Source: Cephalotus follicularis
Lineage: Eukaryota > Streptophyta > Magnoliopsida > Oxalidales > Cephalotaceae
Reading direction: 5' to 3'
DNA length: 64,000 nt
Assembly: GCA_001972305.1 (NCBI GenBank)
Contig: BDDD01002954.1
Location: forward strand, 1 to 64,000
The position numbers and the translations under genes were made by a program. Under the pieces are notes generated by a model. It worked only from the letters and a program-made list of their open reading frames with translations, was not told the origin of the DNA and ran no database searches. Positions within the stretch are counted from its first letter, which is position 1; each line of letters starts with the position of its first letter. Below are positions 13,701 through 64,000 of the stretch, piece after piece.

Positions 13701-13923
13701 TGACATAAATTATCCAAACGACCACCAAAATAATCGCAATAAAAATGCGAACATTCGGGCTTTATTGTCGCGTATTAAAAATAGGTTTTATTAGCCATCT
13801 TAGCTAACACTATTACGACTTAAATGCGTAATGCCTTTTTATTACACCGGGCTCTATCGATTTTATTACAACTGTGCACGCACCAATTTTATAATAATTA
13901 TTTATGAAATTCGGGACGTTACA
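10787..13923 (-). mobile_element. Solo LTR, family S copy 1 (3137 bp, TSD GAGAG)
   Basis: Starts TGTCACACC and ends CGTTACA on the plus strand. It is flanked by identical GAGAG at 10782-10786 and 13924-13928, so it is a complete insertion without internal DNA: a solo LTR made by recombination. Its minus orientation follows from the gag-bearing relative at 58898, whose LTR starts TGTAACG and ends GTGTGACA. It holds the 21-bp pitch arrays at 12016-12345, a CT-microsatellite near 13498-13560 and CGACTC/GAGTCG-rich stretches at 13020-13250. Reading frames inside, some over 100 codons, arise from these low-complexity parts and are not genes. Confidence 0.9.
12016..12345. repeat. Palindromic-word array, 21-bp pitch (CAGTCGGCTG type)
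   Basis: Fifteen copies of a degenerate 10-mer near CAGTCGGCTG (palindromic consensus CAGYCGRCTG). They start at 12016, 12037, 12058, 12079, 12100, 12120, 12141 and 12162, then after a 49-bp step at 12211, 12232, 12253, 12274, 12295, 12315 and 12336. Spacing is 21 bp except two steps of 20. The 10-11 bp spacers differ in sequence. A second word (GCGTCGACG) follows at 12407, 12426 and 12477. Confidence 0.9.
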
Positions 13924-23759: not shown

Positions 23760-23836
23760 GAACTAAAAAGAAGAATGAATCGTTAGAGGAGAGTAAGATA
23801 TCCAATGGTGTCTAGAGTTAGGAAAAATTCACTAAC

Positions 23837-24555: not shown

Positions 24556-24614
24556 CGCTGCACAAAGATGTAGAAGGATAGTAAGAAGAACATTCAAAGC
24601 ATAGATGAAGAAAA

Positions 24615-32258: not shown

Positions 32259-32764
32259 ATTGGAACCCCGGAAGGTTCCCAGTCGATTTTGGGTCTAGGA
32301 TGCAAGTGTGTATCATTTTAATTTTTTAAAAACACCAAGACACGAAGTCAAGATTCACATTTATATCCTAGTACCATAATCAATCCGCCAAGGATCTCCT
32401 TTTAATATTCAATCGAACAAATAAAAACGTCAAGCATACATCCACTTAACCGAAACCAATTCGGTAAACAATAAATACACATGATAAGGAATCATACCAT
32501 AATTAGCGGCTCCACCACTTTGACGCTAAGAGCTTGCTGCAGCCAATGTCGGTCACTGGAGCACCTGCCAGATTCAGGACATCACAGCAGAGGTCCGACC
32601 AGGACATATTAGGACTCTTGGAGCGCCGATCTACCCACTGCAGGTGAAGACTCGGCGAGAAGTACCACGGACGGCGCTGGCGCAGCTAGCAGTGGCAGTG
32701 ACTCACTGAGTTGGACTCAGCGAGACCAGGTCAAAGCGCCATGACCAGCCGCGCCATCACCAGA

Positions 32765-35700: not shown

Positions 35701-35980
35701 TAACTAACCCAACCGCCACTAAAATATTTGTAATAAAATGCGAACATTGGGCATTACTGTCGCGTATTAAAAAAATGTTTTTACTAACCGTTTTGGGCAA
35801 CATAATTGCGGTTTCAATACGAAATGCCTTGAACATTTCCTTATCATTCCTCTTTCAAAACTCAACATTATAAAAGGGAAAACATCATCAAAGTCAGGAA
35901 TTTCACTATTCTCATCAATTCCATAATAATATTACATTAAAATTGTAATGTTGCATTTTGAGAAAAACTCGGGCGTTATA
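32765..35980 (-). mobile_element. Solo LTR, family S copy 2 (3216 bp, TSD CCAGA)
   Basis: Starts TGTCACACC, ends CGTTATA (expected TTACA), flanked by CCAGA at 32760-32764 and 35981-35985. Homologous over most of its length to 10787-13923 and to the LTR at 58898-61842. It shares the segment with CAATTGCCGAAC, the CT-microsatellite (35485-35530) and the end region. Its variable slot at 34190-34510 carries GCGTCGACGC words instead of CAGTCGGCTG words. A further degenerate repeat with CATAGCGGAGGAAAG occurs at 33550-33700. Confidence 0.9.
34196..34510. repeat. Palindromic-word array in S copy 2 (GCGTCGACGC type)
   Basis: GCGTCGAC-like words at 34197, 34224, 34243, 34273 and 34301, then pairs 34344/34363, 34406/34425 and 34477/34498. 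Steps within pairs are 19, 19 and 21 bp. Less regular than the CAGTCGGCTG arrays. Confidence 0.75.
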
Positions 35981-44135: not shown

Positions 44136-44285
44136 CTCGGCCAACTCATGTTCTCGAGTGCTCAGACGACTCGTGGTCTGGCATGCTCGGAAAACTCATG
44201 GTCTGGCGTTCTCGGATGACTCATGGTCTGGCGTGCTCGGACGACTCGTGGTCTGGCGTGCTTGGATGACTCATGGTCTGGCAAG
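44136..44285. repeat. 25-bp tandem repeat, six units
   Basis: Units at 44136, 44161, 44186, 44211, 44236 and 44261 near CTCGGATGACTCATGGTCTGG plus CGTG. Two more units than the undisturbed part of the other D LTR, so copy number changed after the element was formed. Confidence 0.85.
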
Positions 44286-44490
44286 CTCAGACCGCTTGAG
44301 CTAGTAGGACTTCGAGCCGAGAAGCTTCGAGTCCTTAAGAGACTATTTTGGCTTAGCGTTGGGATTCAGCTCTAAGTACTTTTCAAGTACTAAGCTCCAC
44401 CAGTAACATTTGCCTTATCAAGGAAACAACAAAGAAATCCTAATCTACCAAGCACAACAAAATCACACAATACAAGCAACACATACAAAT

Positions 44491-45640
44491 TGAAAGTACT
44501 ACAAGAGGGGGGTGAATTGTAGTATTAAAAAATCTAATGAACTTTTCTGGAAAATTAAATTTAAACTATGAAAACAAACTAGATAAACAAGCAAATAAAC
44601 AATGTAATTAAAGAGAGAGAGTTAGAGAGATGCAAACAAGATTTTTATAGTGGTTCGGATAATCTCGTGCCTACGTCCACTTTTCCCCAAGGACCTCCTT
44701 GATATTCCACTAGACTCCTTCTAGTACACTTTGATTTAGGATTCCGGGTACAAATCAAAACACCTTACAAGTTTAGTGATTGACCTCAATCACTTATGGG
44801 TTCACTCCCTTCACTCCCCTTTTACAAATGTGGATTACAAAGATGGTTTTGTGTTTGTAGATAACCTCTCAAAAGGTTGGATATAGCTATGTAAACTCTC
44901 AAGAATAATACTCAAGTATGGTTACAAAAATGAATATTATGCACTGGAAGCAAGCTTTGATATTAATGTGAAAGTTGGAGATTTTCTCTAGATGTTCTTG
45001 TTGTTGTTTGATCTTGTTCTTTCCTTCTTTTTGTTGTATTCTTCAGTTTATAGTCATTGGTGAAGTAATAGATCCGTTGGGGATGTCTTGGGACTTGTCG
45101 ATTTAAACACAGCGCTTTAAAATGTAATTAGTGATTGCTTCCAGCCGCAAAGTGTCGACGTTGTTCCTCAAAGCGTCACCGCTTATGTGACCATTGTACA
45201 TTTGAATTTGAAACTGTCTGCTCAAAGCGCTAAAGGTTTCAATTTGGTGTCGACGATTTGACACAAAGCGCTGACAGTTTGTGTAGAGCGTTGCCGCTTT
45301 ATGCAAATCAATTGGCCTTAAAAGTTTCTGTGATAAACCGCGGATGTAGTGTGCTTAAGCGCTGACGCCTTGGCTTAAACTGCTGACGCTTTTCTCTGAC
45401 CGTCGACCCTTTAAGCAATTTCTCCTTTGCTTAAAACTCTTCAACTGTTGACGCTTTGCACTTAGGCTTCGAAGGTCTCCTTAAGTGCTGACAGTTGTAT
45501 CTAGACCGTCGACGCTTAGCCTTGTTCCTGCAATTTCTTGTTTTGTCTTTGCAAGTTTTATCTTTACTTGCACAAAAAGAAACTTCGTTAAATGCAAATA
45601 TGTTATCATCAAAATTCGGATTAAGACATAAATGTCAACA
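44491..45640 (-). repeat. 3' LTR of Sirevirus
   Basis: 1150 bp, TGAAAGTAC...AATGTCAACA on plus (TGTTGACATT...TACTTTCA on minus). It is followed at 45641 by ATCTCCCCATTTTT, the complement of a polypurine tract. Contains a palindromic-word array at 45151-45520. Confidence 0.9.
45151..45520. repeat. Palindromic-word array in Sirevirus 3' LTR
   Basis: AGCGTCGACGCTT-like words at 45151/45172, 45226/45246/45267/45287, 45358/45379/45399 and 45444/45464/45484/45505. Steps within groups are 20 or 21 bp. The homologous array of the other LTR lies at about 58018-58390. Confidence 0.85.
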
Positions 45641-46132
45641 ATCTCCCCATTTTTGATGATGACAAAAATTTGCTATATTTTAGACAAATTTAAAATATAA
45701 CAATGTATAAGTTAAAATGATAACAATTCGTTTGGAAAATACGAAATCAAATAACTCCCCATTAATATGACAAGGGTTATCGTTTTAACGTCTCATTCTC
45801 CCCTTTACTATTCTCTCCCCCTTTTTGTTATAACATCAAAAAGCTAAGAATAATAAATGCGAAATTAAAATATATATCGACAAGCATTCATAACACAATA
45901 ATTCATTGTTTCCAAAGATACGAACCATTCAAAAGCATCCAACACACAATATTAAAACAAGTTACAAATCATGTTCTCATCATAACAAATTACAAAATAT
46001 TAAAGTTTTCACACTCCATAACCAATTACAAAAATATCAAAGTTCAAACTTCATAACAAATTACAAACTTCAAATTGTTTTTGAAATACCAATCATCAAA
46101 ATGAACAAAATGCAAAATGAAGATGCGGAGAT
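45641..46132 (-). other. Sirevirus 3' untranslated region with polypurine tract
   Basis: Complement of the polypurine tract AAAAATGGGGAGAT at 45641-45654, followed by AT-rich non-coding sequence up to the stop of the post-pol ORF. Confidence 0.7.
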
Positions 46133-46954
46133 TCAATCGGCCATGGGATCATCCATGTCGCCCACCTCATCGGTACCTCCGTCTTCTCTTTGGTTAGCAT
46201 ATTCTTCTTGGCTTGAGGATGTTATGATGCCTTCGTCGCCAATAACTCCTCTTTCTACAAGCTTTCTTGCTATCCTCTTTTGCCTCTGCTTAATTGTTTG
46301 AATGTCCATTTTCATGCCTTTAATAGCTTGCATAAGTTCTTCGAATTGATTGCTTGGAAAATTAACATTCAGTGCGGCATCAACTTGTGGCGCTCTTTCT
46401 TCTTCACCTTTAGCCTCTTCTCCTCCTTCTTCTCCACCTTCTTCTTCTTCCCTGATTATCCTATTAGAATCCTCCTTTCTAGGGATCCAAGTCTCAAGCA
46501 TTTTGTGCTTTTTGAGCCCCATTCTTCCTAGGGTTCCTTTGCCTAATTTATTCGTACTTTGAAGTGCATGGTGCACTTCTCCACTCAAGTCAACACCAAA
46601 GTGCATGAGGATTTTGGTGATTATGTTGCTATAGGGTATTCTAGCATTTTCCCTAGAATGCATGGCTTGCATGTGGTTTATAATCAACTTGGGCACACAA
46701 ATCCTTTGACCCGTAATTATATGGAACATTGTGAATGCTTCCATATAAGTCACTTCATCAAACCCACCGGCTTTAGCAAGATATGCATAGCTACCACACG
46801 GTGTAGGAATCTAGGTGAAACCTAAGGTTCCTAGAATACATCTTTTGGAATATGGTTGCGTTTTCACCAAACAACAAACGCACGCAATCTTCCTTCTTAA
46901 AAGCTTTATCAGTAGCCCATTTCTTTTGATTCCAAGCCCTGGTGCATACACAAG
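46133..46954 (-). pseudogene. Sirevirus post-pol ORF, C-terminal part
   Basis: Continues the minus-strand frame of 48902-49290 after removal of the solo LTR 46960-48896; the reading LATILEIP|CVYAPGLGIK crosses the GGATT duplication. One stop occurs near 46820. It aligns with the ORF at 6746-7738, for example GRMGLKKHKMLETWIPRKED against GWKKQQGIWTYVPK. A Glu-rich segment (EEEEGGEEGGEEAKGEEE) and a C-terminal coiled coil around IKGMKMDIQTIKQRQKRIAR follow. Position corresponds to the env-like gene of Sireviruses, but no membrane segment is evident. Confidence 0.65.
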
Positions 46955-46959
46955 GGATT

Positions 46960-48896
46960 TGTAACGCCCCTGACCTGAGTTCACTTTATGCTCAAAGCGA
47001 GCTACGAGGAATCGGTGCATTACGTGGGGTGTGTAACCTTCAACCATTTTTAACAATCTTACTTATTGCTAACATTTATCATAACTTCTCATAATCTCAT
47101 ATGTCGTACAATTCTACACTAAACATCAAGATATCATACTCTTATATGAAAATATCATATACTATAATAATCATCATCAACGTCTTGCATAACACATTAC
47201 ACAACGAAAAATTTAAACTCATTACATGATAAAACAGTTTATGCAAAATGTAATTGCTTCTCAAAACTCGTTTTATGAACTTCTGCTAAAGCTCAAAATC
47301 CACGTTCAACCACTTTTTGGAAAATTTTTATTTGAAAACAAAAACATTGAAAGGAGTGAGCATCAAAATAGCTCAGTAAGGGTTTAAAATAAATACTTCA
47401 TCATATTCATCTTCTGATCATATCTAATGAATTAGAAACATTTCATAAATAACTGACGGGTTATATATACTTAAAGAACCCAACTGAACCATTCTTCACC
47501 TGGGCCTTGTGCACTCCCCGATTATTATCCTTACATCACATGCATGTCCGTGAGCACTCTCCGCTCCATTATCCATATTTAAATCACAATCCAAGAGTTT
47601 TTCATCTCAGTTCATTATGTTTTTACATTTTGCAAATTCAGTTCTTAATACTTTGAGTGATAAGCTCAATGTATTCATAAAAACAATATCGTATAACATT
47701 TGTAAAACATAAATTACATATAGAAACATTCATTTACAGAGAAAATGTAAAACACTAAAGTTATAGTAGATGTTTCAAAGATTTCAGAATGATAAAGATC
47801 ATAAATTTTCATTGAGAAACGAAGCTACAATGAATTTTTAAAGTTGCATATTCCATATGACAGCAAAACATGAGCAGTAATTTTAAACATAGATTTTTGT
47901 CAAGAAAATGACTGAAATTCAAAATACATAAAACATAACAGTTATAGAATACATCTTAAAGTTTTCAGAACAAAGAACCATTCAAAATTTCATTGAGAAA
48001 CGAGTAAGTTATGATTAAAACAATATGCTACATAATTCTAGAAAATAACAGAAGAAAACTTTGACATAAAAGAGTAGAATTTTCCTTACTTTGATTGTAA
48101 TTCTCTTTCTTCCTTCTCTTAAAAGAATTGTTTCAGCAAAACTCAGTAGAAAATAACCTCTTCTCAAGCCAAAACTACACATTTATTTATATAAAGAGAG
48201 AAACTTAGGGTGCAAGCTATCCCTAATGAGTCACTATGCCACTTTTCCATATGATGTCATCTCCTCACGATGACACACACACTCTCTCCAATATAATGAC
48301 ACTTGTCCTTTTCTTCATTTCTAACATTAAAAACATCTGAATCTCACTCCCTATATTGATGCGTTTCCCCTAATTAGTGTAATTAAATCGCAAAGAGACA
48401 AAAGTTAGATTTTGTAGCTGGTCTACATGCCAAAGCGCCAGCGCTTTACATTGAAGCGTCGTTGCTTACAGGCTTTGTCAAAGGTTCTTCGGCTGATACA
48501 CATGTTAAGTGCTGACGCTTAAAATTAAAGCGTCATTGGTTTACTCCAAGCATTGCCGCTTTCGTGCGAGGCGTCGTCGGTTGAAAAATGTTACAAAGAA
48601 AAAAATGCACTGGTATAAAGCTCTGTTGGTTGTTACCCAATCGTCGCCGGTTTACTGTCAAAGCGTCGCCGCTTCTATGGAACCATCAGCGCTTAAGCTC
48701 GATTGTTTTGGAAATTCAGTCGACGCTTAATATTATCTGTTAGCGCTTTATACCATTTTTCCGATGCTTTATTCCTTGCATTCGACGCTTTCAACATAAC
48801 ACATGATTCCAAACACAAAACAACACATTTCCAAGAGATATAAAGCAAACATATTTCTATAAACAATAACTTCAACGGAAAATTCCGGTCATTACA
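46960..48896 (-). mobile_element. Solo LTR, family G copy 1 (1937 bp, TSD GGATT)
   Basis: Plus-strand ends TGTAACGCCCC and TCATTACA, flanked by GGATT at 46955-46959 and 48897-48901. Its left end is the reverse complement of the right end of 55251-57532, so the two are one family in opposite directions. It has no coding sequence and carries palindromic words at 48434-48690. Confidence 0.9.
48434..48690. repeat. Palindromic-word array in family G copy 1
   Basis: AGCGTCGNCGCTT-like words at 48434/48455, 48508/48529/48549/48570 and 48619/48640/48662/48682. Steps are 20-22 bp within groups. Confidence 0.8.
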
Positions 48897-48901
48897 GGAT
48901 T

Positions 48902-49290
48902 TCTAGGATAGTTGCTAGTGTAGTGAAATTTAAATCAATCTCCTTATACTTTACCTTAGTGCACAGGTCTACACTAGAACTAGGGAGTATGTTCACATAA
49001 AACTCCTTCATCAATTCCGGGCAGTAAGGGAGGTTAATCTTAAATAAGGGAGCTAGTTCTTGGGCCTCTAACCATCCAACTGTGGAAAAACCTTCATTAA
49101 TACAAAAATCAAAATCAAGAGTTTTACCTACTAGGATTTTACGTTCATAGTATGCCTCGGGATACCTTACAACTTGAGGAAACTCCTCCGATGAAGATGG
49201 TGCCTCAACATTTCTACCATTCTTCTTTCTTCCAATACTTTTCCTCCTCTTTGAGCCTTCTCCAATCTCCATATTCTTTGTTTTAGGCAT
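48902..49290 (-). pseudogene. Sirevirus post-pol ORF, N-terminal part
   Basis: ATG at 49290, MPKTKNMEIGEGSKRRKSIG..., a basic tail followed by KTLDFDFCINEGFSTVGWLE, matching the NIDFDFC region of the ORF at 6422, and PELMKEFYVN where that copy has its stop. The frame is open up to the solo LTR. Upstream (49420-49455) lies a pair of palindromic words 21 bp apart. Confidence 0.65.
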
Positions 49291-49463
49291 TTTTGGTGAT
49301 AGTGTGTGGTTTAGAATCGATTTTTGGCATGAAATCGCCAGAGAGAGGTTTGGGGTTTAGGGTTTTGCGTTTAAAATGACTAACAGTCGATTTTTACTGA
49401 TATAAAGTTCGTCTAAAGCGTCGACGCTTTAAGATAAAGCGGCATCGATTTGCACATTTGGCA

Positions 49464-50304
49464 CTGAAAGTAAAGTATGGCAACCTTTAACTAATGCAAT
49501 TTGTTCGCGGAATTAACAAATTAAGCAATGAACATAAATAATCACACAAGAACAATTAAATAAAGAGTTAAGGGATAGAGAGTGTGCAAACAGATTTATA
49601 GTGGTTCGGCAAATCCGTGCCTACGTCCACTTTCTCAAGAACCCCTTGAGATTCCACTAGCCACCACTAGCAACCTTTGATTTTTGGCTTACGGGTGCAA
49701 ATCAAAGAATTCAGATTATAGCCGTTGCAAAAGTCTTTGGGCATTTTGGATATAACAATATGTTGATGCAGCCTTGTTTTAGTCTCTGCTGGTAGAAAGA
49801 CGTCGATGTCTTTTGGAAAGGCATCAATGTCTTTCACTGTTGATAGCCGTTGAAGGTGCGCCAAGTAGCCGTTCCATGTTTCCCGGGTCTGTCCATTTAA
49901 AAAGACATCGATGTCATTTCTGGGAAATGTCCAGGCTTTGAATGTTTGAACATCACGTCGACTTCTTCTTCCTTGGTCGATGTCTTTTCTGGTTTTGGCT
50001 GAAAGACGTCGATGTCTTATGAAAGGGATCGACTTCTTTTGTACGGACGTCGACTTCTTTGACTGTATGGATCGATGTCTTTACCAGAATTTGTCCTGTA
50101 ACTTTGGGCAAGAAAGACGTCTATGTCTTTTTGAAAGGCGTCGACTTCTTCTGTACGGACGTCGACTTCTTTTCTGGAAGGTCAATGTCTTTTGCTCTGC
50201 AGAAGATTTTTGCTTTGACAGCAATCTTTCCAATATCTTGCACATTAAACAAACATGTTAAATGCAAATTTGTAATCATTAAAACATATTATTGAGATTC
50301 AACA
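49464..50304 (-). repeat. Second, different Sirevirus-type LTR between pol and post-pol ORF
   Basis: Plus-strand ends TGAAAGTAAAG and GATTCAACA. It shares with the flanking Sirevirus LTR the block GTGGTTCGG...CGTGCCTACGTCCACTTT and the terminal sequence, but the middle differs. The complement of a polypurine tract (ATCTCCCCATGATTG) follows at 50305, so it looks like a 3' LTR attached to the pol on its right. Flanks GGCAC and ATCTC are not duplicates. Confidence 0.65.
49799..50190. repeat. Palindromic-word array, GACGTCGATGTC type
   Basis: Words near GACGTCGAYKTCTTT. The TCGA or equivalent core is at about 49803, 49824, 50009, 50029, 50050, 50072, 50120, 50141, 50162 and 50182. Steps are 20-22 bp within groups, with variable spacers. 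A third word type on the same pitch. Confidence 0.8.
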
Positions 50305-50497
50305 ATCTCCCCATGATTGTGACTCAACAGGCACAATTCGAGCCCTAAACGCAGTGTAAAACGCTGACGCTTTGTGTTTAGACGTCAGCGCTTTGCTCTG
50401 TTTTTCTTCCGATTTTTTGATATCGCGATTTAATGAGTGCAAATGATGCAAGAATGATCATACAAGCACATCAAACAACAACATATAATCATATCAA

Positions 50498-53400
50498 TCA
50501 ATCAATTTCACACAAACCTAATTCCAATCTAAATTTTGAGAATGTTTGTTCATATAAGGGTTTAGTGAAGATATCCGCTACTTGGTCTTGTGTAGGTAGA
50601 AAGACTAGTTCGATATCTACTTTTTCTATGTGGTCTTTTATAAAGTGATATCTGATATCTATATGCTTAGTTCTTGAGTGGTGTACGAGATTTTTTCCTA
50701 AGCAAATCGCACTAATGTTATCACACCTTATGGGCACTTTTTCAAAACTAAAGCCATAATCGAGGAGTTGTTCTTTCATCCACATTACTTGTGCACAACA
50801 ACTTCCCGTGGTAATATACTTAGCTTCGGTAGTTGAAAGAGCTACCAAATTCTGTTTCTTGCAAAACCAAGAAATGAGCATATTTCCTAGGAATTGGCAT
50901 ATGCCACTAGTACACTTTCTATCTACTTTATATCATCCGAAATCGCCATCGGAGTATGTATGAAAGTCAAAAGATGAGTTCCTAGGATACCAAAGTCCTA
51001 ATGTTGGTGTATAAGCTAAGTATTTAAAATCCTTTTTATTGCATGCCAATGAGATTCTTTAGGGGATGCTTGAAATCTAGAACACAAACATACACTAAAC
51101 AAGATATCCGGTCTACTAGCAGTTCAATAAAGTAACGAGCCTATCATGCTCCTATAGAGTTTTTGGTCGATAGATTTACCTTGCTTGTCTTTATCTAACC
51201 TTGTTGTTGTGCTCATTGGAGTTTTGCTTTTCTTGGCATTTTCCAATCCAAATCTCTTGAGAAGGTCTTTGACGTACTTGAATTGATTGATGAAGATGTC
51301 ATCCTTAATTTGTTTAACTTGAAGTCCAAGGAAAAAGTTGAGTTCTCCCATCATGCTCATCTCAAATTCCTCCTACATGATCTTAGCAAACTCCTTGCAC
51401 AAGTCCTCATTAGTAGATCCAAATATTATGTCATCAACATATATTTGCACAATTAAAATTTCTTTATTAAGAGATTTAGTAAATAGAGTTATATCTATTG
51501 TGCCTCTTTTAAAACCGTTTTCAAGTAGATAGCCACTTAATTTTTCATACCAAGCTCTAGGAGCTTATTTTAAACCGTATAAGGCTTTTGAAAGTTTAAA
51601 AACATGATTTCAAAAATGTGGGTTTTCAAATTCGGGATGTTGTTCTACGTAAACTTCCTCCTTTATCAAACCATTTAAAAATGCACTTTTTACGTCCATT
51701 TGAAAAAGAGTGAAATTTTTAAAAGATGCATATGCAAGTAAGATACATATGAATTCTAATCTAGATACCGGTGCATAAGATTCATCAAAGTCAATTCCCT
51801 CTTCTTGGGAATAACCCTTAACAACTAATATAGCCTTGTTTCTAATAACTATACCTTGTTCATCCATCTTAAATCTATAGACCCATTTTGTACCAATTAT
51901 GTTATGGTTTTTAGGCCTAGGAACTAGGTTCCATACTTTATTACGTTCAAATTGATTAAGTTCTTCTTGCATGGCATTTATCCAATTTTCATCCTTTTTT
52001 CCGCTTCTTCTATATTCCTAGGTTCTATTTAAGATATAAAAGCAATATAGTTGTGATTTAGACTAGATCTAGTAGTTACTCATAATCTAGGATTACCTAT
52101 GATAGATTCATGATGATGTCCTCTCACCACCTTCAAGGTCTTGTTGTGAAGGGCTTCTTGGTAGCTTTGAGAGGATTCTCCATTTATAGACTCCTCCTTT
52201 TTGCTATCTTTTAAATTTAGCTCCTCAATTATATTTTTGATAAAATCTAAAGAGTCAACATCAATAACTTCTTTTGGAAGTTTTGGGTTAGTTTCATTAA
52301 AAATTACATGCATAGATTCTTCAACTAATAAAGTTCTTTTATTGAAAAATGTAAAGGCTCTACTAGAAGTTGAGTACCAGAGAAAAATGCCTTCGTCGAC
52401 TTTGGAGTAGAACTTACCAAGATGGTCTTTTCCATTGTTTTGGATGAAGCACTTGCATCCGAAGGCATGAAAGTAACCAATGTTAGACTTTCTCCACCTC
52501 CATAATTCATATGGAGTCTTTTTTAGAATATGCCTTATAGATATACGATTCAAGACATAACATGAAATATTTATAGCTTCCGCCCAAAAATATTTTGGCA
52601 AATTATTTTCGTTTAACAAAGTTTTACACATTTCTTGTAGAGTTATATTCTTCCTTTCAACAACCCCATTTTGTTGAGGAATTCTAGGAGTAGAGAACTC
52701 ATGTGTAAAGCTGTTTTCATTGGAAAAGTTTTCAAAAAGATGATTTTCAAATTATTTTCCATGATCACTTCTAATTTTTAAAATCGATCTGTCCTTTTCT
52801 TTTTGAACAATTTTACAAAAAATTGAAAATTCTTTAAAAGCTTTATTTTTGTGGGCAAGGAAAATAGTTCATGTATATCTAGAGTAATCATTAACAATAA
52901 CCATAGCATATGATTTATCACCTAGACTCCTAATATCAATAGGTCCAAATAAATCAATATGCAATAATTGCAATGGCCTAGTAGTAAGGACAATGTCATT
53001 GCTCTTAAAGGATGTTCTAGTTTGCTTTCCATGATGACAAGCATCACATATTCTATCTTTTACAAAACTAATTTTGGGAAGGACTTTAACTAGTTCATGC
53101 TTTAAAAGCTTTGTTATGGTTGACATACCAACATGACCTAGTCTCTTATGCCATAGCCAACTACTTCATTTATGGATACTAAACATTTAAAATTTTACAA
53201 GTCATTTAAATCTACAACAGATACATTTCAATGTCTATATCCAATGAACTTAGTTTGGTTATTGTTGATGTCTATTAATTTACAAGAATCTTTTTCAAAA
53301 GTGACTCTACAATCCTTGTCACATAATTGACTTATGCTTAAGAGATTGTGTTTAAATCCATCCAAACACAATACATTATGAATAGAAGTTTGATTGTTAC

Positions 53401-53596
53401 CTATGGAACCAAAACCCATAATCTTTCCTTTTGCATTATCTCCAAATATGACATCTCCTCCTTCCTTTGACTTGAAGTTGACAAATATGCTTTTGTCACC
53501 CGTCATATGCTTGGAGCACCCACTATCCAAGTACCATTGCATCTTCTTGGTTAGCACCTTCAAACACATCTACAAAAAATAAATTCAAAATTTTGT
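50498..53596 (-). pseudogene. pol: Sirevirus pol: protease, integrase, RT, RNase H
   Basis: Copia order on minus. Protease WYLDSGCSKHMTG at about 53530. GAG-pre-integrase and zinc end with CDACHHGKQ near 53040. Integrase core with LLHIDLFGP, SDHGK (then a stop, FENHL) and TPRIPQQNGVVERKN, so Asp, Asp and Glu are all recognisable. RT from [12 protein letters not shown] (51930) through [15 protein letters not shown] to an intact YVDD (about 51435). RNase H with LVALSTTEAKYI and KHIDIRYHFIKD, ending in ELGLCEID near 50498. Several stops and frameshifts. This single-polyprotein layout is typical of Copia. Confidence 0.88.
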
Positions 53597-55097
53597 TTAA
53601 GGTACCCAACTAATTTTGGGTCCCTTGGGGTTAGTTACAATGGTTCCTTTAGGAACCCAACTTTTCTTAACTCTAATAAAATTTGAATCATGCAATATAT
53701 TTCTCTTGTAAAAGCATGAAGAGGAAACATGTCCTTGTTTACCACAATTATTACAAGTGACATTTATATTTCTTTTATTCATGATATTTCTTTTATGCAT
53801 GACATTTTTCTTGTAGAAGAAAAAAGATGATGCATGTCCGTATTTACCAGAATGGTTACAATAGGTATTTACATTTTTCTTATACACAACATTTCTCTTC
53901 ATGTCCATATTTGCCACAATAGTTACACGAAATATTTACATTTTTCTTATTCATGGCATTTCTCTTATGGAAACAAGATGAAGATATATGTCCATTTCTA
54001 CCACAATAATTACAAGTAATATTTACCTTTTTCTTCTTAATAGAAATTTTTTCAACTTTATCCTTTTCTATCTTTTCTTTTCTTTCAAAGAAATTTTGAT
54101 ATAACTTGACATTATCCATTTCTTTATATCTTAATCTGGCCTTATCAAAAACACATATTTGCATTCCTAAAAGATTTTCTAGTTTTTCACTACTATTAGA
54201 AAACTTTGAGAAAGTTTTCTTTAGAGCATCTATCTCATCCTTAAGATTTTTATTTTCCTTTTCTAAATAGGCTACTTCATTTTCTAAAAGATCTATTTCA
54301 ACTTCCTTTGAGTTATCTTCCTTAGTCAAGTTAATCGATTTTAATTCATCATTTTCATTTGCTAAGGTTTTGACCTTTTTCTTTAGGGAAGCTATAATCG
54401 AACTATATTTTTCAACAATAATAACAAGTTCGTCATAACTTACCTCATCATTTTCTTCCTCTTCTTCTTCCTCAATAGCCATCAAAGCCAATTGAGCTAC
54501 TTCTTCACCTGAGTCTTCATCTGAGCTTGACTCAACGCTATCATCCCATGTTCTTGGCATGCACCTAAGAATCTTCCTCACCATTTCACTGTTAGAATAC
54601 GTTTTATTTAAAGCTTGCAATGCATTAATAATATTGGAAAATTTAGTAAACATAGATTTAATATCCTCATTCTCATTCATTGTGAACATTTCATAATCAT
54701 GAACTAGCATACTTATTTTAGCTTCTTTGACTTGGTTTGTACCTTCGTAGGTAACCTCAAGTGTATCCCACATTTCTTTGGCTGAAACGGAAGATGAGAC
54801 TCTATTAAACTCACTAAAATTTATAGCACAAATTATGATATGTTTAGCTTTAGCATTCATTTGTACTCTTCTCCTATCTTCATCATTATAGCTACTTCTA
54901 GGTTTAGGAATTTGTTCACCATTTTCATTTCTAGATGTAGGCAAGTTTGGACCATCAACAATGAGTTCCTACAAGTTATAGTCTAATGATTGGTTGAATA
55001 TGGTCATTTTTGCCTTCCAATGGCTATAGTTATTTCCATAGAAGAATGGAGGCTTAGAGATATTTTGGCTTTCTCTGGAGTTCATGTTCATTGTCAT
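53597..55097 (-). pseudogene. gag: Sirevirus gag with zinc-knuckle array
   Basis: ATG at 55097 (also 55091 and 55085). Near the N-terminus is FFYGNNYSHWKAKM, the standard Copia gag motif. A TAG at 54969-54971 interrupts it, and the long frame then runs to 53880. It contains a UBN2-like domain (SAKEMWDTLEVTYEGTNQVK), an acidic stretch, a long coiled coil (about 54250-54420) and the knuckles CNYCGRNGHISSSC and CNYCGKYGHEEKCC. In another frame (53597-53917) follow CNHSGKYGHASSFF (degenerate) and CNNCGKQGHVSSSC. Four knuckle units are unusual, Copia gags normally having one or two. Sirevirus gags are known to be long with coiled coils. Confidence 0.85.
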
Positions 55098-55141
55098 AAA
55101 AGATCTTTAAGGCTCTAGCAATTAAGATTTATAAGCCTACC

Positions 55142-55153
55142 GCTCTGATACCA
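55142..55153 (-). other. Sirevirus primer binding site (initiator Met tRNA)
   Basis: Plus GCTCTGATACCA, complement of TGGTATCAGAGC, 2 bp from the LTR start at 55156. Confidence 0.88.
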
Positions 55154-55250
55154 ATTGAAAGTGCTACAATGTAATTAAAGAGAGAGAGTTAGAGAGATGC
55201 AAACAAGATTTTTATAGTGGTTTGGCTAATCTCGTGCCTACGTCCACTTT

Positions 55251-57532
55251 TGTAACGACCCGAATTTCCATTAAAGATATTAATTATGGAAAGATATTTG
55301 TTATTGTGTAATTGGCAAATATTTCAAGGGACCCGTAGTATGACCCTACGCTCGGGGGGTTCGGGGGTTCCGCTCCCTTGTGAGCGGACGAGGGGTCCCG
55401 CTGCCCGGTCAGCGGGCAGGGGCTCGGGGCAGCGCCCCTGGAAGAAAACATAAATTAGTTATTACATTGTGCTAGAAATGTCTAAAGCGCTGACGGTTCC
55501 AGGTAAAGAGCCGACGCCTTGGAGGCAACCGACGACGCTCTAAATGTAAACGTCGACGCTTTGAAGACAAGTGTGTCAGTTGACCTGGAGGAGACTTAAA
55601 GCGGCGACGCTTTGTAGGAAAGCGTCAGCGCTTTAGTTGGGATAGAAGTTGGAGAACTCAGTATAAGCTCGTAACTGGCGATGCTTAGGGATAAAGAGTC
55701 GACGCTTTGCCCTGTGTCAGGTGCAAAATTCTAGCTTTTTACCCCGTTTCAGAAGAATTAAATGGATCGAGGGACACGTGTCAAGCAAGGGATGGAAGAC
55801 TTATTTTTTTCTGCTAGAAAGGGGCAGGTGGCATCATTGGATTTGATGGAATTCCATCACATGGGCAACTAGGAGGCAAACTCACATGGGTGAGGTCATG
55901 GATGACACCATGCAAGCTTGGCCTCTAAGTTTCCCTTTCTCTTTATATATGTGGGCTTTCTTAGCTGAAAAATGGTTAGCTTTCTTCTGAGATTAGAGAG
56001 GAGGATGCTTGGGAGAGAAGAAGAGAAGGAGATCAAGTGAGGTAAGGAAATTCTATACCCATTTATGTCAAAGTTTCCTTTGTTTTACTTCCAAATTATG
56101 TAGCAGATAGTTTTATTGATATCTTGATCATTTATTCATGAAAATTAGAATGGTTTAATGTTTTGGAAACTTCAAGATGTATACTTTAACTGTTATGTTT
56201 TATGCATCTCGAAATTCTGTAGAATTCTTGATGAAAAGCCATGTTTTCTTCTACTGCTCAGGTCCTGTTTTCAAAAGGAAACTGCAACTTTAAAAATTCA
56301 TTGCAGCTTCGTTTCTCAATGGAATTTTATGATTTTTATCTCTATAAATTCATTGAGATGTCTACTTTAACTTTGATGTTTTAAGTTTTCTATGACAATG
56401 ATTATTTCTATATGAAATATATATTTTAGAAAAGTTATGCAAAACTGTTTTCTAAAGGTTTTTGAGTTAATTACTCAAAGTGAAGAGAAATATTTTATGA
56501 TTGTGAAATGAAATGAAAGGAAGGTTTCTACATGAGAAACCAGTTTTACAAAAGGCTTTACAATGATGTTTTATGAATGCTTTGGGCTGATCACTCAAGG
56601 TATTAAGAAAGATTTTATGAAATGATTTTATGAATGCATTTGAGTTAACTACTCAAATGAAGAGAAATGTTTTATGAATGCATTTGAGTATTGGAAAACG
56701 TTTTTTGATTGTTTTCAAGTATGCTGGTTATATATACCAGAAAATGTATGATTTTAGAAATGTTCTGGTTTTATAAAACTAGAAGATGATTTTCAAAGAT
56801 ATTTTGAAATGTATGATGTTGAAACGTTTTGATAAAGATTATCAAAAACAAAGGATTTCGATAATGTTTAATGACTATGATTCTTACTGGGCTCTTAAAA
56901 GCTCACTCCTTTTAATGTCTTGTTTTTAAACAAATCTTCCAGGAAATGTTGAACGTGAAGTTGCGAGTTTTAGAGGAAGTTCGCGAAAGAAGAGTAAGGA
57001 AAGAAAGTATGATATGCTATGAAGTTATGTTTTAATGTCATGTGTTAATATTTTTCGTTGTGTAATGTTTTATGATAAACGATGTATAGACGTTAAAGTA
57101 AGGAAATTAATGCTATAGGTTATGATGTTTTTATGTAAGATGATGATATCAAAGGTTATTGAACATACTTGAGTGTATGAGATGTTAATGATAAAGGCGA
57201 GTATATGATTATTTTATGATGTGATAAGTTTATGTTTTTCCGCTGTGTAAGGTTACATGTTAAGTGATGTATAAATGCAAAGGTATTAGAAACGAATCAT
57301 GATAATGAGAATATGATATTTTGAAATTGATGTTTCAAAGATATAAGCATAGGCGATCCTGTGAAGTTATTAAGTAATAACATTAGGTTTTAAATCTAAG
57401 CCAAGATTATATGATATGAAATGGATCGTTAAATGATTATATGATTTGACGATCAAAGGTTACACCCACGTAACGCACCGATATTCGGAGCTCGCTTTGA
57501 GCTTAAAGCGGACTCGGGTCGGGGGCGCTACA
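55251..57532 (+). mobile_element. Solo LTR, family G copy 2 (2282 bp, TSD ACTTT)
   Basis: Starts TGTAACGACCCG, ends GGGCGCTACA, with ACTTT at 55246-55250 and 57533-57537. Removing it restores the Sirevirus LTR phrase CGTCCACTTTTCCC. It is related in reverse to 46960-48896. It holds a GC-rich segment (55330-55445), an array at 55486-55710, and TTTTATGAATG/ATTTGAGTTA repeats at 56460-56700. No credible ORF. Confidence 0.92.
55486..55710. repeat. Palindromic-word array in family G copy 2, exact 21-bp steps
   Basis: Words AGCGCTGACGG, AGAGCCGACGC, ACCGACGACGC, AACGTCGACGC and AGTGTGTCAG start at 55486, 55507, 55528, 55549 and 55570 (21 bp each). Then 55600/55621 and 55674/55695, again 21 bp. Confidence 0.88.
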
Positions 57533-58897
57533 ACTTTTCCCAAGGACCTCCTTGAGATTCCACTAGACTCCTTCTAGTACACTTTGATTTAGGATCCCGG
57601 GTGCAAATCAAAACACCTTACAAGTTTAGTAATTGACCTCAATCACTTATGGGTTCACTCCTAAATCACACTAAGGGTTCACTACCCTTTTACAAATGTG
57701 GATTACAAAGATGGTTTTGTGTTTGTAGATAACCTCTCAAAAGGTTGGATATAGCTATGTAAACTCTCAAGAATAATACTCGAGTACGGTTACAAAAATA
57801 AAGATTATGCACTTGAAGCAAGCTTTGATATTAATGTGAAAGTTGGAGATTTTCTCTAAATGTTCTTGTTGTTGTTTGATCTTGTTCTTTCCTTCTTTTT
57901 GTTATATTCTTCAGTTTATAGCCGTTGGTGAAGTGATAGATCCGTTGGGGATGTCTTGGGACTTGTCGATTTAAACACGAAGCTTTAAAATGTAATTAGT
58001 GATTGTTTCCAGCGAGCAAAGCATCGACAGTGTTCCTCAAAGAGTCGCCGCTTATGTGACTGTTGTACATTTGAATTTGAAATTGTCTGCTCAAAGCGTA
58101 GAAGGTTTCAATTTGGTGTCGACGGTTTGACACAAAGCGTTGAAGATTTGTGTAGAGCGTCGCCGCTTTGTGCAAATCAATTGGCCTTAAAAGTTTCTGT
58201 GATAAACCACTGATGTAGTGTGCTTAAGTGCTGATGCCTTGGCTTAAAGCGCTGACACTTTCCTCTGACCGTCGACACTTTAAGCAGTTTCTCCTTTGCT
58301 TAAAACTCTTCAACTGTTGACGCTTTGCACTTAGGCTTCAAAGGTCTCCTTAAGCGCTAAAGGTTGTATTTAGACCGTCGACGCTTAGACCTATTCCTGC
58401 AATTTCTAGTTTTGTCTTTACAACGTTTTATCTTTACTTGCACAAAAAGAAACTTCGTTAAATGAAAATATGTTATCATCAAAATTCGGATTGAGACATA
58501 AATGTCAACACAAACAATCAATATAACAAATCAAACAACACACACACAGAACACACAATACATACATGCTGGTAGGCGCTCAGACACATAGCAACATACC
58601 TCAAAATCGACATACCTCAAAATCGATTGAAAACAGAGATCGCCCGATTCCTTCTTGAATATTGAACTTCCTCCAAGCCTAGAGCTGCTACTCTCCCCAG
58701 CTTCCTTCTCTTTTCCACTCTGGCATTGCTCCTTCACTCCCAGGAGACGGGGAATTTATACGGGAGCACGGGAGACTTCGAACTCTCCCGAGGAAGCTCA
58801 TCTCTTGTCGCTTTCTTCATGTTTCTCGTGACACCAGGCCCCATCTCCCACTTTTTCACCTTTCTCTTGATTTCTCTAGAATGAAGGACTGTGAGAG

Positions 58898-61842
58898 TGT
58901 AACGCCCGAGGTTTTCATTAATGTGATGGTGTGTTTCCCGATGTAATCTACACCTTGAATTTAAGAGAGTCATGAGTTTCCATCTTGTGTATTGAAACTT
59001 GCATGGAGAGATAAGTGCAAAGTGTGGGAACAAGGGTGGGCAGCCGACTGCCAGAAGGAGGCAGTTGACTGGACCCCCTGTAAGTAAACCAGCCGACTGC
59101 TGGGGGAAAACAGCCGACTGAGGAGAGTGTCGGTAGAAACAGCCGACTGCCGAGACAAGGCAGCCGACTGCCACGTGGTCTGTCAGTCAAAAACGTGTTG
59201 AAATACCAAGATTTTGGAGGAGAGTTGAGGGGAGAGAAGTGTTGTTGAGTAGAGAAGTGGATGGGGGCGATTTTCCTCCATAAAAACACATCTCTTCTCC
59301 TCTTTGAATTAGTTTTCCAGAGAGAAACAAAGTGTGAGGAAGAAGAAGAGGAAAGTGAGTGTGTGACTAAGCCTAAGTGCTTTGTTTTGAACCGGGGACT
59401 TGGAAGATCAGACCAGTGGGAGAACCGGACTTGTTGGAGTTGCTGGACGGGCCTGGGAGCGTGGAACGCCTCGGATCCGGGACTTAAAGAGGTGGATTGC
59501 AATTCCTAACTTGGAATTCAAGGTAGGGGAAAGTTGTAATTGTGATTTAATTTCAATAATAATAATGTTCATGGATGAAATGCATGTAATATACTGTGAA
59601 TGGAGCATGAATGTGTGTTGTGGTGATGGTGCTATGTGTTTTGAGTGGATTAAAGTGGGTTGAATATGTGTATTTTCTACTGTTTTGGGGCATTGTCCGC
59701 AGAGCCAGCCGACTGTCCATGGAGGAAAGCCGACTGCCCAAGGCTACCAGACGACTGTTCAGTGTGAACAGCCGACTACTAAAGGGAAAAAACCAACTGT
59801 GCAAAGGAGCCAGTCGACTATTCATGCTTTGTGATGAAGGATACCTCCTACAATTTGACTAGCCGACTGCCAAGAAGGGCAACTGACTGTTGAGATAGGA
59901 CAGACGACTGCCAAGGAGGGCAGCTGACTGTTGAGATAGGACAGCCGACTGCCAAGGAGGGCAGCCGACTGTTGTTTGAGGGCAGCCGACTGCCGATAGA
60001 AGACAGCCGACTGTTGAAGGAATATAGCCGACTGTCAGTGAGAGACAGGCGACTGTTGAAGGAAAACAGCCGACTGTCAGGGGGAGACAGCCGACTGTTG
60101 AAGGAAAACAACCGACTGTCAGTGAGAGACAGCCGACTGTTTGGGATTGTTTTGCATTGTGAGCATATGCGTGCATCGTGCACCATGATGAACGGTATTG
60201 TGAATTGGTTATTGATGATTGTGAAACGTTTTACCACTTTTGGAAGTGCAAACATGATTTATATAAATCACTACTTTACTCGAAAATGTATGTTTTGAGA
60301 GAATATATTCTCGAAAGATTGTGAACTAAGAACTGTGACATTGTGAAAAATGTGTTTGTTTTCAAGTACTTTATGTTTTATAACTTGCTTGGAAATGTTT
60401 TGATCGAGTTGAATTGTTGATTGGGTAATCAACTGTTTCCAAAAAATGTACTCCATTTTGGAAGGGAGTAAATGGTTTATTAAAATAATTACTAAGGGGG
60501 AAAAGTATGTTTTCCAAAAGGATTGTTATATATATATATTGACAAATATATATGTTGCAAGTAGTTATATCTATAAATTACTTGAAATAAATTGAAGGAA
60601 AGCGTATCGTTGCAAGTATTTTATGAAGCATAATTTACTTGGGAAATGGATTGCTATATATATGTTGTAAGTATTTATACTTTTGAACGTTTTGGAAATG
60701 AACTTCAACGTATTGAACGACATGTTTTGATCAAGTAATTATTTTATAAATTGCTTGAGCTGGAACGTGTGTGCTGTGATTGCACTGTGCTATTGTTATG
60801 AATGTACTATTATTGTGACTGTGACTAGTGTTGGTACTTAGCCACTGTGCTAGTATCGTTTTTTGTGTCCTGATTATTGTTACTTAGCCGCCGCGCTAGT
60901 AACGTGAATGTTATTGAAATGATTGTGCTTGAGTGTTACCGCTAGCGGGGTAATGTTGGTAATTAGCCGCCGTGCTAGTATCGTGAGTGTTGACATTAGC
61001 GGGGTAGTGTTGGTACTTGCCTCGTGATTGTATCGTATTGTGTTCCGAGTGTTGTTACTCACCGTCGTGCCAGTAACGGGGACAATTGTTTGCATTGAGT
61101 AAATTGATTGTCTGATATGACATGTCTGATTGATAGAAGTGTTGCCCTATATGGCATGACTGATTGTTTGACTGTTTGGCAGTGTTGGACTGAGTTGTCC
61201 ATTGTGGTTTTTATTGACTGGATCGAATCGATGGGTCCTTAGGGACCTGAGGCTTGCTTGACTGTTTGTGTGGAGATCGGTCCCTTGCGAACATCAATGT
61301 TGTTTGAGTCGGTGTAACCGGGTCGAGTTACACCTATGCTGTGATATGCATACTTTGAACATATATGTATATACTGTTGTACATACCGTACTGCATCTTT
61401 TTGCATTCATACATGACATGTTTTATCTTAGATCCTGAATTACTCTTATGACTTTAGCCGAGTGAGGACAAAGGATAACACCCTACAATTTCAAATTGAT
61501 TTCAGGTTGATGCAGCGGATTGTTACCGTTGAGCTCCGTGGAGCGAATGGAGTTTTATGTTGTTTTTACTTTTGAGAAACGTTAATGGATCATTGTAATA
61601 AATGAATCGATGTATTGATGATTATTGTTCACTCCCCGTTTGGGGGCAGTTAACTTTGACGATGTTTTTGTTGTAGCATGTAGTATGAGATGCATGTTAC
61701 GTTGTAATTCGGCTTATATTTAAATGCTTCCGCGAGTTGTTAATGGCTATGGAAAGTTTTAATTTTATGGTAAATTGCATAAGCCGGATTGATATGTTTA
61801 TTGCCACCACTATTTATGTTGTTTGTGAAACGGGGTGTGACA
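58898..61842 (+). repeat. 5' LTR of S element
   Basis: TGTAACGCCCGAGG...GGGGTGTGACA. Homologous to the solo LTRs 10787-13923 and 32765-35980 in reverse. It has palindromic-word arrays at 59041-59170 and 59706-60139 and a TTAGCCGCCGTGCTAGTA-type degenerate repeat at 60835-61080. Confidence 0.9.
59041..60139. repeat. Palindromic-word arrays, 21-bp pitch (CAGCCGACTG type)
   Basis: First group: 59041/59062, 59090/59111 and 59140/59161 (21 bp within pairs, 28-29 bp between). Second group: 59706, 59727, 59748, 59769, 59790 and 59811; a 49-bp step; then 59860, 59880, 59901, 59921, 59942, 59962, 59983, 60004, 60025, 60046, 60067, 60088, 60109 and 60130. Twenty copies, steps 20 or 21. The same 49-bp step occurs in S copy 1. 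Confidence 0.92.
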
Positions 61843-61959: not shown

Positions 61960-63192
61960 ATGGACGGTCGGAGAAGACGCGGAAGGCGTGGATTTGTTAA
62001 CGAGAATGTTCCCGAGGAAATGAATGTTGGAGAGGATCCTATGAATAATGTTCCTCAGGGGGCGGCTAATGTGGGTGTGCCGGGGGCAGCGCCTGATGTG
62101 AGAGATCCATTGGATCGCATCGCTGATTACTTTGAACAGCAGATGGCTGCCTATCAGCAACAGATGGCCGCTAATGCAGCGAATATGGAGGAGATGCAGA
62201 GATTGTATATCCAAGCTCAGCCTCAGTACATGGCTCCTGCTCACGGTGCATGTGATGACGGTAATCAGTTTTGGAGGGACCTTGAGAGGTTCATGAGACA
62301 GAATCCACCCAGTTTCAGAGGAGAGTTGGATGCTACCGTTGCTGAGAGGTGGTTGTAGGATCTAGAAAAGATCTTCGATGTGACGAACTGTACAGATGGC
62401 CAGAAACTAAAATTTGTTGTGTACCGTCTATGGGGTGAGGCCATCCACTGGTGGGAGATGGTCAAGGCAAAGTGGGAGTCAACTGGACTCGGTAGTAATT
62501 GGGAGAGGTTGCGGAAGGAGTTCCTCGATGCTTATGTGCCTCGACTTGAGCAAGAACAAAGGGAGACAGAGCTCCTGGAGCTACGCCAAGGAGAAATGAC
62601 TGTGTCGGAGTATACAGCAAGGTTTATGGAGCTAGCCAGACATTCCCCCTATCTGGTAGCTGATGATGAGAAAAAGATACGGAGGTTTTTGAAAGGTCTA
62701 CGATCGGATCTTCGGTCAAGGATCAGGGCTATGGAACTGGGGACTTTTGTAGAGGTTGCTTAGAAGACAAGGTTGTTAGAAAGCATCTCAAACGAAGACT
62801 GTGCTGAAAGGGCTCGTACGCAGCGGAGCAAACAAGACCCTACTCAGTTCAGGCCAGCATCATCACAATGGCAAGGCAGTGATTCTCCGCCCAAATTGTC
62901 CAAGAACCAATCTCAGCAGACTGCCACCCAAGGAAACCCTAGTCAAAGGAGTAATGTGAAGTCTGGGGTTTTTTTCCACTGTGGTCGTACCGGTCATCAA
63001 GTGAAAGATTTTTGGGTAAAGAAAGGGTTGTGTTTGAAATGTGGGGCACCTGGTCATTTGGTGAGGGATTGTCTGGAGATTTCAATGGCAGTACCCACAA
63101 GATCTGCGGGTGATAGTGGCGCTGCAGTTGGGCCTTCACAGCGAAAAGATACCGGCAAGGGCATCATGAGAGGTAAAAGTCTTTACTTTTAA
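61960..63192 (+). pseudogene. gag: S-element gag, two in-frame TAG stops
   Basis: ATG at 61960 (MDGRRRRGRRGF; an in-frame ATG also at 61933). One frame runs to 63192 with TAG at 62356 and 62761 and no frameshift. A Gln/Met-rich helix (EQQMAAYQQQMAANAANMEE) precedes the capsid-like Retrotrans_gag domain (GEAIHWWEMVKAKW, RLRKEFLDAYVP, GEMTVSEYTARFMELARHSP). The first zinc knuckle is degenerate (FHCGRTGHQVKDFW), the second complete (CLKCGAPGHLVRDC). The frame ends without a protease motif, and 386 bp later the 3' LTR begins. Few lesions compared with D and Tat suggest younger age or recent gag function. Confidence 0.87.
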
Positions 63193-63578: not shown

Positions 63579-64000
63579 TGTAACGCCCGAGGTTTTCATT
63601 AATGTGATGGTGTGTTTCCTGATGTAATCTACACCTTGAATTTAAGAGAGTCATGAGTTTCCATCTTGTGTATTGAAACTTACATGGAGAGATAAGTGCA
63701 AAGTGTGGGAACAAGGGTGGGCAGCCGACTGCCAGAAGGAGGCAGTCGATTGGACCCCCTGTAAGTAAACCAACCAACTGCTGGGGGAAAACAGCCGGCT
63801 GGGGAGAGTGTCGGCAGAAACAGCCGACTGCCGAGACAAGGCAGCTGACTGCCACGTGGTCTGTCAGTCAAAAACGTGTTGAAATACCGAGATTTTGGAG
63901 GAGAGTTGAGGGGAGAGAAGTGTTGTTGAGTAGAGAAGTGGAGGGGGGCGATTTTCCTCCATGAAAACACATCTCTTCTCCTCTTTGAATTAGTTTTCCT
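63579..64000 (+). repeat. 3' LTR of S element, first 422 bp
   Basis: Collinear with 58898-59320, including six palindromic words at 63722-63852. Cut by the window end, so the 3' target duplication is not visible. Confidence 0.9.

Follow-up and report, generated by a model that had tools for sequence, protein, structure and literature searches.

Near-palindromic words of ten bases, repeated at a pitch of 20-21 bp and separated by DNA that varies, occupy part of the long terminal repeat (LTR) of a gypsy retrotransposon in the Australian pitcher plant, Cephalotus follicularis (Oxalidales). This retrotransposon, here called E1, lies at the end of a 64,000-nucleotide stretch of contig BDDD01002954.1 (positions 1 to 64,000; the window). 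The word (W1) and its pitch are present in copia elements of Sirevirus-like type as well as in gypsy elements, which is new. After insertion the words decay faster than the spacers between them, whereas between families they are conserved, a pattern suggesting that selection keeps the word rather than the intervening DNA. We propose, with a probability of about 0.68, that the arrays are cis-regulatory operator arrays for a sequence-specific, probably dimeric and cooperative DNA-binding protein that switches the promoter on.

The word and its pitch in E1 and across the genome

The 5′ LTR of E1 (58898..61842, plus strand, about 2.94 kb, TGTAACGCCC...GGGGTGTGACA) is a direct repeat of 63579-64000 and houses both W1 arrays. 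Just past it lies the primer-binding site TGGTATCAGAGC (61847, plus strand), followed by a gag gene broken by two in-frame stops (61960..63190, plus strand), for which profile searches with the pieces between the stops taken separately returned Retrotrans_gag, Ty3_capsid and CCHC. No pol was seen between the broken gag and the 3′ LTR (63579..64000, plus strand), which ends at the window edge and holds a copy of the first array at 63722-63851. E1 is a non-autonomous Ty3/gypsy element.

Array A1 (59041..59170, plus strand) begins 143 bp inside the LTR and consists of six words with steps of 21, 28, 21, 29 and 21 bp, the last word being located about 108 bp upstream of a TATA-like CCATAAAAACA. 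Array A2 (59706..60139, plus strand) has 20 units, with steps of 20-21 bp plus one of 49 bp. Together they confirm the 26 copies per LTR counted in a first-pass annotation of the window; likewise, 21 of the 24 steps are 20 or 21 bp, the others being 28, 29 and 49 bp. The annotation had given the word as a palindrome, CAGYCGRCTG. The word itself stood, but its strict palindromy did not: position 7 is A in 26 of 26 units, so that R is absent from this LTR and the form here is CAGYCGACTG, often with an imperfect palindrome (C4/A7); the unit at 59790 carries three mismatches. Because position 7 is always A, W1 is directional in the E1 LTR.

The mean entropy per position is 0.13 bits in the word and 1.54 bits in the spacer of A1, and 0.38 and 1.37 bits, respectively, in A2; in the spacer, units with a 20-bp step are shifted by one column. 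A third array of 14 words (12016..12324, minus strand; steps of 20-21 bp and one of 49 bp), which is partly homologous to A2, gave 0.41 and 1.48 bits. It belongs to S (10787..13923, minus strand), a solo gypsy LTR related to E1, whose flanking repeat CTCTC was read directly. In all three arrays measured, the mean for the word is thus below 30% of that for the spacer. Spacers had been described as changing freely at constant length; they do vary, albeit not with full freedom, because the 3′ part of A2 is a recent duplication with 41/42- and 84-bp repeats.

In the 1.577-Gb genome, CAGCCGACTG-N8-14-CAGCCGACTG (pitch 18-24 bp) occurs 32,658 times versus 92 for a reversed control, and CAGCCGACTG pairs separated by N5-35 (pitch 15-45 bp) 44,701 versus 111 times. 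For each pattern 100 matches, drawn from the first contigs, were listed; among those listed for the wider range, 68 have a pitch of 19-22 bp and 32 of 39-45 bp, with none elsewhere. When pairs 42 bp apart were collected with the middle left free (7,465 versus 10 in the control), the best match to CAGYCGRCTG was located at offset 20-22 in 92 of the 92 distinct strings among the matches listed, with at most two mismatches in 90 of them, versus 2.8% of shuffled middles. Grouping these 92 listed strings by spacer gives 41 clearly distinct sets, in which the word columns have 0.0-1.0 bits, while the spacer columns have 1.2-2.0 bits in the 31 cases having offset 21. A chance origin of the word array is excluded. 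Six 5-kb stretches were also fetched regardless of the word; with both strands counted, three of the six yielded 1, 7 and 2 matches to W1 at no more than one mismatch. Single exact pairs also turned up in 6 stretches of the viral collection and 16 of the bacterial one, and were taken as chance.

From the list of pairs at pitch 18-24 bp we picked 20 loci of 10 kb (named L below), counting as an array any group of at least four words. The resulting 42 arrays, window included, contain 429 words, of which CAGCCGACTG, with its fixed C4/A7 mismatch, is the commonest (165), followed by the perfect palindrome CAGTCGACTG (85); position 4 is T in 144 of the 429. Where spacers are distinct, 213 of 227 steps of up to 34 bp are 20-22 bp. 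The two expectations of the first-pass annotation, that word and spacer should differ in entropy (three window arrays, 41 spacer sets) and that the pitch should not drift, are therefore largely supported. Precision of the pitch to a single base is not: by hand count, 4 of the 12 spacers within groups of four words (tetrads) differ in length by 1 bp between L033 and L048, whose arrays are homologous, and per base, length changes inside tetrads are about as frequent as between them. Since single-base precision is unsupported, what speaks for a ruler is that one pitch is kept across different spacer sets and by different words. In W1 arrays at C4:675711-675783, C5:48788 and C11:177235 the middle word is reversed (CAGTCGGCTG or a decayed form), whereas the arrays elsewhere are directional.

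One word in copia and gypsy elements

Outside the words, 24 of the 42 arrays match copia LTR or ENV-region references, 11 match gypsy LTR references (one of them weakly) and seven match neither. L048, L036, L031 and L045 between them encode the copia proteins Retrotran_gag_2, Pol_BBD, SH3 and RVT_2, and each has an ‘ENV-like’ (PF20167) open reading frame (ORF). On the gypsy side, W1 is accompanied by gypsy proteins in L043 and E1 (Retrotrans_gag, RVP_2 and RVT_1 between them). L043 shows gypsy gag, protease and reverse transcriptase, then two W1 arrays and then a repeated LTR end, from which we infer that both arrays lie inside the LTR, the start of which falls outside the sequence seen; three further ORFs of this locus gave no integrase or chromodomain. 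An earlier assignment of all arrays to a single LTR superfamily, based on single-linkage clustering of flanks that joined 40 of the 42 arrays downstream, was dropped when Pfam showed copia and gypsy to be mixed. The spacers of copia and gypsy arrays have a mean best identity of 0.642, compared with 0.626 for column shuffles, 4 of 200 of which were as high. In view of this marginal similarity, some spacers may share descent by recombination. Among the matches listed and the passages available from open-licence papers, we found no report of a word common to copia and gypsy LTRs, nor of the 21-bp pitch; among the matches listed for the word strings none was on LTR arrays by title, and a search for GTCGAC together with an LTR retrotransposon motif in plants found none.

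In copia elements the arrays tend to lie close to promoters. The LTR of L036 (732-2006) has 17 called words from 164 bp inside, mostly in fours, plus four internal ones, and L033 follows the same plan, with steps of 20-21 and then 50, 60 and 65 bp; in these two the array begins 164-165 bp from the LTR start. In four of seven copia LTRs scanned the array ends 42-44 bp upstream of a TATA box. All six copia elements (6/6) have a separate four-word array upstream of the ENV-like region, and in five of the six the ENV-like ATG follows 114-116 bp past the last word, although the ORF is shortened by stops in L031 and L047 and no ORF starts at that place in L048. Units 2-4 of this array are CAGTCGACTG in five of the six elements though their spacers differ. 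As for gypsy, L043 has a TATAAAAACA box 226 bp beyond its first array, and no ENV-like gene was seen in E1. The longer spacers between tetrads have a common motif, approximately AAAATCNGGCAGTAG (L033 3290-3795, L036 896-1401).

The pitch recurs with a second palindromic word, W2, in support of the first-pass reading. Pairs of W2 (GCGTCGACGC) number 6,264 versus 7 in the control, some places being counted on both strands, and among the matches listed 50 of 78 distinct places have a pitch of 19-22 bp (16-46 bp allowed; uniform expectation 10). For the remaining CG-centred near-palindromes (neither W1 nor W2), pairs at 19-22 bp are not clearly in excess in the window, the array loci or the background (2, 2 and 0 pairs versus 0.7, 1.8 and 0.6 expected from their own remaining distances). 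Overall, 82 CG-centred near-palindromes of 12 bp were counted in the window versus 24-37 across five shuffles. The pitch of W2 looks looser than that of W1, because the five W2 loci fetched show steps of 25, 31, 44-53 bp and longer besides 19-22 bp. Four of these five match none of the LTR references, and L061 matches the gypsy LTRs S and T at 66-69%. In L057, W2 words (1956-2099, 20-25 bp steps) and W1 words (2688-2766, 21-27 bp steps) lie less than 1 kb apart.

Judging from few examples in the window, W2 in the form AGCGTCGACGCT is also found in both copia and gypsy-related LTRs. S carries three W2 words (12406-12487) in addition to its W1 array. LTR T (32765..35980, minus strand), assigned to gypsy via its homology to S (75% over 1.1 kb), has AGCGTCGACGCT at 34272-34487 and no W1 array. 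The copia element U (44682..58510, minus strand; LTR copies at about 44682-45640 and 57535-58510, 91.7% identical) has W2 words in its LTR and above its ENV-like gene. The 5′ part of this gene lies at 48899..49290 (minus strand) with the ATG at 49290, and the words begin 160 bp (4 mismatches) and 139 bp above it, i.e. one 21-bp step apart. Since U holds nested insertions, the copia gag at 53883-54968 was given to it by position only. An apparent solo LTR with W2-like words (46960-48899, minus strand, TGTAATGACC...GGGCGTTACA) is inserted in the ENV-like gene of U. A third word, W3, forms an array at 49797..50191 (minus strand) of AAGACATCGACGTCTT-like words (at most 5 mismatches in 16) within an apparent further copia LTR; the steps are 20, 21, 21 / 22, 21, 20 / 19 / 21 bp, with longer gaps between the groups.

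Rates of change and competing explanations

Words and spacers of the same arrays were compared at different ages. Among LTR pairs of single elements, E1 has changes at 6 of 60 word bases versus about 8 of 361 outside words, the eighth falling on the last base of the window (one-sided p 0.008), and L048 at 27/180 versus 19/333 (p 0.0005); L036 (7/180 versus 7/326, p 0.19) and L033 (5/180 versus 6/326, p 0.35) point the same way. In all four pairs combined, words change more, with a Mantel-Haenszel odds ratio of 2.6. Transitions make up 38 of the 45 word changes (E1 6/6, L048 24/27, L036 6/7) versus 25 of 40 others, as expected for methylated cytosines.

Over longer times the order is reversed. 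In 66 pairs of copia arrays (12 arrays), words exceed spacers solely in three LTR pairs, and in the 39 pairs whose spacers have diverged by 0.357-0.512, the words have done so by 0.087-0.189. Ten further pairs were compared after dropping columns that pair word with non-word. While S-L039 shows more change in words (0.085 versus 0.032 in spacers), the gypsy pairs E1-L038 (0.107 versus 0.418), S-E1 (0.108 versus 0.349), L039-E1 (0.108 versus 0.354) and L044-S (0.143 versus 0.554) show far less; L043-L050, poorly aligned, gave 0.308 versus 0.486. In an LTR family placed in neither superfamily (L034, L035 and L037), comparison with L042 gave 0.060 versus 0.147 (L035) and 0.060 versus 0.162 (L034). 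The claim that word and pitch rather than the whole unit are conserved is thus supported between families as well as by entropy. Fast word decay after insertion combined with slow change over time points to purifying selection in the transposing lineage, and is a combination that neither simple homogenisation nor a cold spot of mutation would predict.

We suggest the following mechanism. Many near-palindromic CAGYCGACTG sites, two helical turns apart and near promoters, would be bound by a dimeric, cooperatively acting protein, which would either switch the element promoter on or keep it open against silencing. As to the binder, there is a slight preference for a nuclear protein of the host on which many element families would draw.

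Several points weigh against this proposal. The larger array of E1, A2, is sited downstream of the TATA-like CCATAAAAACA instead of upstream, and for this reason probably lies in the transcribed leader. In three of the seven copia LTRs no TATA box was found by pattern at 42-44 bp. Words had been thought to face one side of the helix throughout; this is the case within runs, and recurring steps of 42, 52-53 and 73 bp are close to whole turns, but it does not extend across the recurring steps of 28, 49-50 and 60 bp, which correspond to 2.7, 4.7 and 5.7 turns at 10.5 bp. The excess of word changes is non-significant alone in the two youngest LTR pairs (L036 and L033), and transitions account for just 2 of the 5 word changes in L033. 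The close pairs L034-L035 (0.017, 1/60, in words versus 0.011, 1/95, in spacers) and L034-L037 (0.014, 1/70, versus 0.038, 4/106) do not separate words from spacers in the expected way. Finally, word divergence is partly limited by the rule of calling words with up to two mismatches, a constraint that the test with the middle left free avoids.

An unlikely alternative, albeit the one we take most seriously, is that the copia ENV-like (PF20167) protein would itself recognise the word, both in the promoter of its own gene and in the LTR, in analogy to the VANC proteins of VANDAL transposons, with gypsy elements hitch-hiking via the same word. The place of the four-word arrays, 114-116 bp above the ENV-like ATG in five of six copia elements, is in line with this idea, as is the W2 pair above that of U. 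The N-terminal part of the ENV-like protein of U shares 25-26% identity with four W1-type proteins and, across 29 residues, 31% with a fifth, far below the 50-89% among the W1-type proteins themselves. N-termini in ORFs read from the DNA are basic (PKRQK, SRKRK, SKRRK), and one PF20167 family model ends in a confidently predicted long helix, probably a coiled coil, the long versions beginning lysine-rich. There is also a precedent, in the accessible part of the VANC report, for arrays of motifs in one orientation that vary from one related element to another, and for a motif shared with an unrelated element (PMC5735166). However, the structural model is too poor to reveal a DNA-binding fold (mean predicted local distance difference test score, pLDDT, of 44), and a profile search against PDB gave weak matches (best E 0.16). 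The VANC domains DUF1985 and DUF287 were absent from the ORFs scanned, i.e. 14 of the 16 window ORFs of at least 180 amino acids, the three gag pieces, and 23 of the 44 ORFs of at least 120 amino acids from six of the 20 array loci. A basic cluster within the first 60 residues occurs in just 19 of 102 and 3 of 110 M-starting models. Among the relatives listed in two PF20167 sets, 119 of 120 and 35 of 120 proteins contain a hydrophobic 19-residue stretch, which leaves room for an envelope-like role. Moreover, the gypsy elements seen do not encode the protein. A broader version, in which the ENV-like gene of Sirevirus-type elements would encode no envelope but a self-regulating VANC-like activator or anti-silencer that reads the 21-bp-pitched words in its own promoter and LTR, word and protein would co-diverge into W1, W2 and W3 ‘channels’, and gypsy would parasitise these by evolving the word, appears more doubtful still.

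The PF20167 ORF in the window (6734-7738, plus strand) comes from a large Cephalotus protein family with 426 relatives and, its own entry (100%) aside, reaches 94% identity with CFOL_v3 proteins among the relatives listed; an ORF of L036 is 100% identical to CFOL_v3_00009 across 71% of the query.

We consider it improbable that the palindromes are silencing targets, either through hairpin transcripts feeding small RNAs or through CG and CHG cytosines attracting methylation, a role that has been proposed for the palindromes of maize Sirevirus LTRs. Such a role would fit the mostly transitional, accelerated decay of words after insertion, the CG or CHG context of each cytosine of CAGCCGACTG on both strands (read directly), and the predicted folding of RNA 59860-60141, which covers most of A2 and folds better than 200 of 200 shuffles (z -4.0); palindrome-rich regions of Sirevirus LTRs are described in the available part of one study as hotspots of small RNAs (PMC5311732). 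It leaves unexplained, however, why the words are retained over the long term in source lineages, as well as the C4/A7 mismatch, which weakens pairing, the promoter-proximal tetrads and the fixed pitch.

A host factor of the DREB/CBF type, the core site of which is GCCGAC (DRE/CRT), might read this core in CAGCCGACTG, the form of 165 of the 429 words, yet this is very improbable: the T found at position 4 in a third or so of the words removes the core, W2 is also without it, and units 2-4 of the ENV-promoter array, CAGTCGACTG without RCCGAC in five of six elements, are kept while the spacers differ, which argues against a factor reading GCCGAC. A functionless ordinary 21-bp minisatellite in random decay, in line with the recent 42/84-bp duplication in part of A2, is the least credible explanation and is already contradicted by the different long-term rates of word and spacer, by their reversed order after insertion, and by the presence of one word in 41 different spacer sets among the matches listed, where the whole unit is not conserved.

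Other window elements and comparison with known systems

A repeat pair at 31720-32284 and 43713-44309 contains tandem arrays of 29-bp (TTCACCCTTAGG) and 25-bp (CTCGGACGACTCATGGTCTGG) units in which a palindromic word is not obvious, and three long ORFs without Pfam match (22764-25355) lie in a gypsy element at about 15.5-26.8 kb.

The arrays provide evidence from within one genome that strong selection can act on words in retrotransposon LTRs without constraining the DNA around them, and that the same word and spacing are common to two superfamilies. With a defined probe, the reader of the repeated motifs (RMs) of Sireviruses and the role of the ENV-like gene become testable, which ties the RM question to the arms race of transposons with silencing. 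In the available part of the report by Bousios et al. (2010), RMs are palindromic, present in 8-32 copies per element, and near-identical within an element while their flanks diverge; they are concentrated upstream of the TATA box, in the LTR's first half, with extra copies just above ENV, have a CGG-CCG core signature in all but Tnd-1, and are described as Sirevirus-specific and absent from classic copia elements (PMC2829016). Of the known systems RMs come closest to the W1 arrays, which resemble them in being palindromic arrays of at least eight copies (26 units per LTR in E1, 17 plus four in L036), and the Tnd-1 motif ACAATCGATTGT is two bases off ACAGTCGACTGT (PMC2829016). The W1 arrays differ in their YCGA core, which lacks CGG-CCG, and in the window host, since E1 has a Ty3-type gag and is not a Ty1/copia Sirevirus. 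W1 is further set apart by its 20-21 bp pitch, its tetrads, its presence in gypsy and the test for selection made here, neither a fixed pitch nor a gypsy case being found for RMs in the sections of that report at hand (PMC2829016). Given their copia proteins and ENV-like ORFs, W1 in the copia loci L036, L048, L031 and L045 may be an RM proper.

Tandem elements of this kind are familiar from plants, where the Tnt1 LTR carries repeated boxes, and VANDALs, for their part, are DNA transposons. Like W1, the LTR enhancer boxes (e.g. Tnt1 box I) are tandem cis elements thought to be activator sites, according to the part of the RM report available (PMC2829016). Among mechanisms that have been worked out, the VANC system comes nearest, as far as the accessible parts of the two reports go (PMC5735166, PMC10398659). 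Hosaka et al. (2017) describe, in the part available, short motifs in dense same-orientation arrays in non-coding DNA of transposable elements, which differ between related elements and grow in tandem, one of them being shared by the unrelated AT9TSD1 (PMC5735166). Like these targets, W1, W2 and W3 form dense, mainly same-orientation arrays in different, partly related LTRs. VANC target arrays are, in addition, characterised by protein binding and by loss of methylation at the motif, and in VANDALs an element-encoded binder was demonstrated experimentally (PMC5735166, in the part available), whereas the binder of W1 is putative and deduced from the words. The best reading is that the W1 arrays are a Sirevirus-type repeated motif that spans superfamilies; by the tests made, E1 is a member of neither the RM nor the VANC system, and it would work like both.

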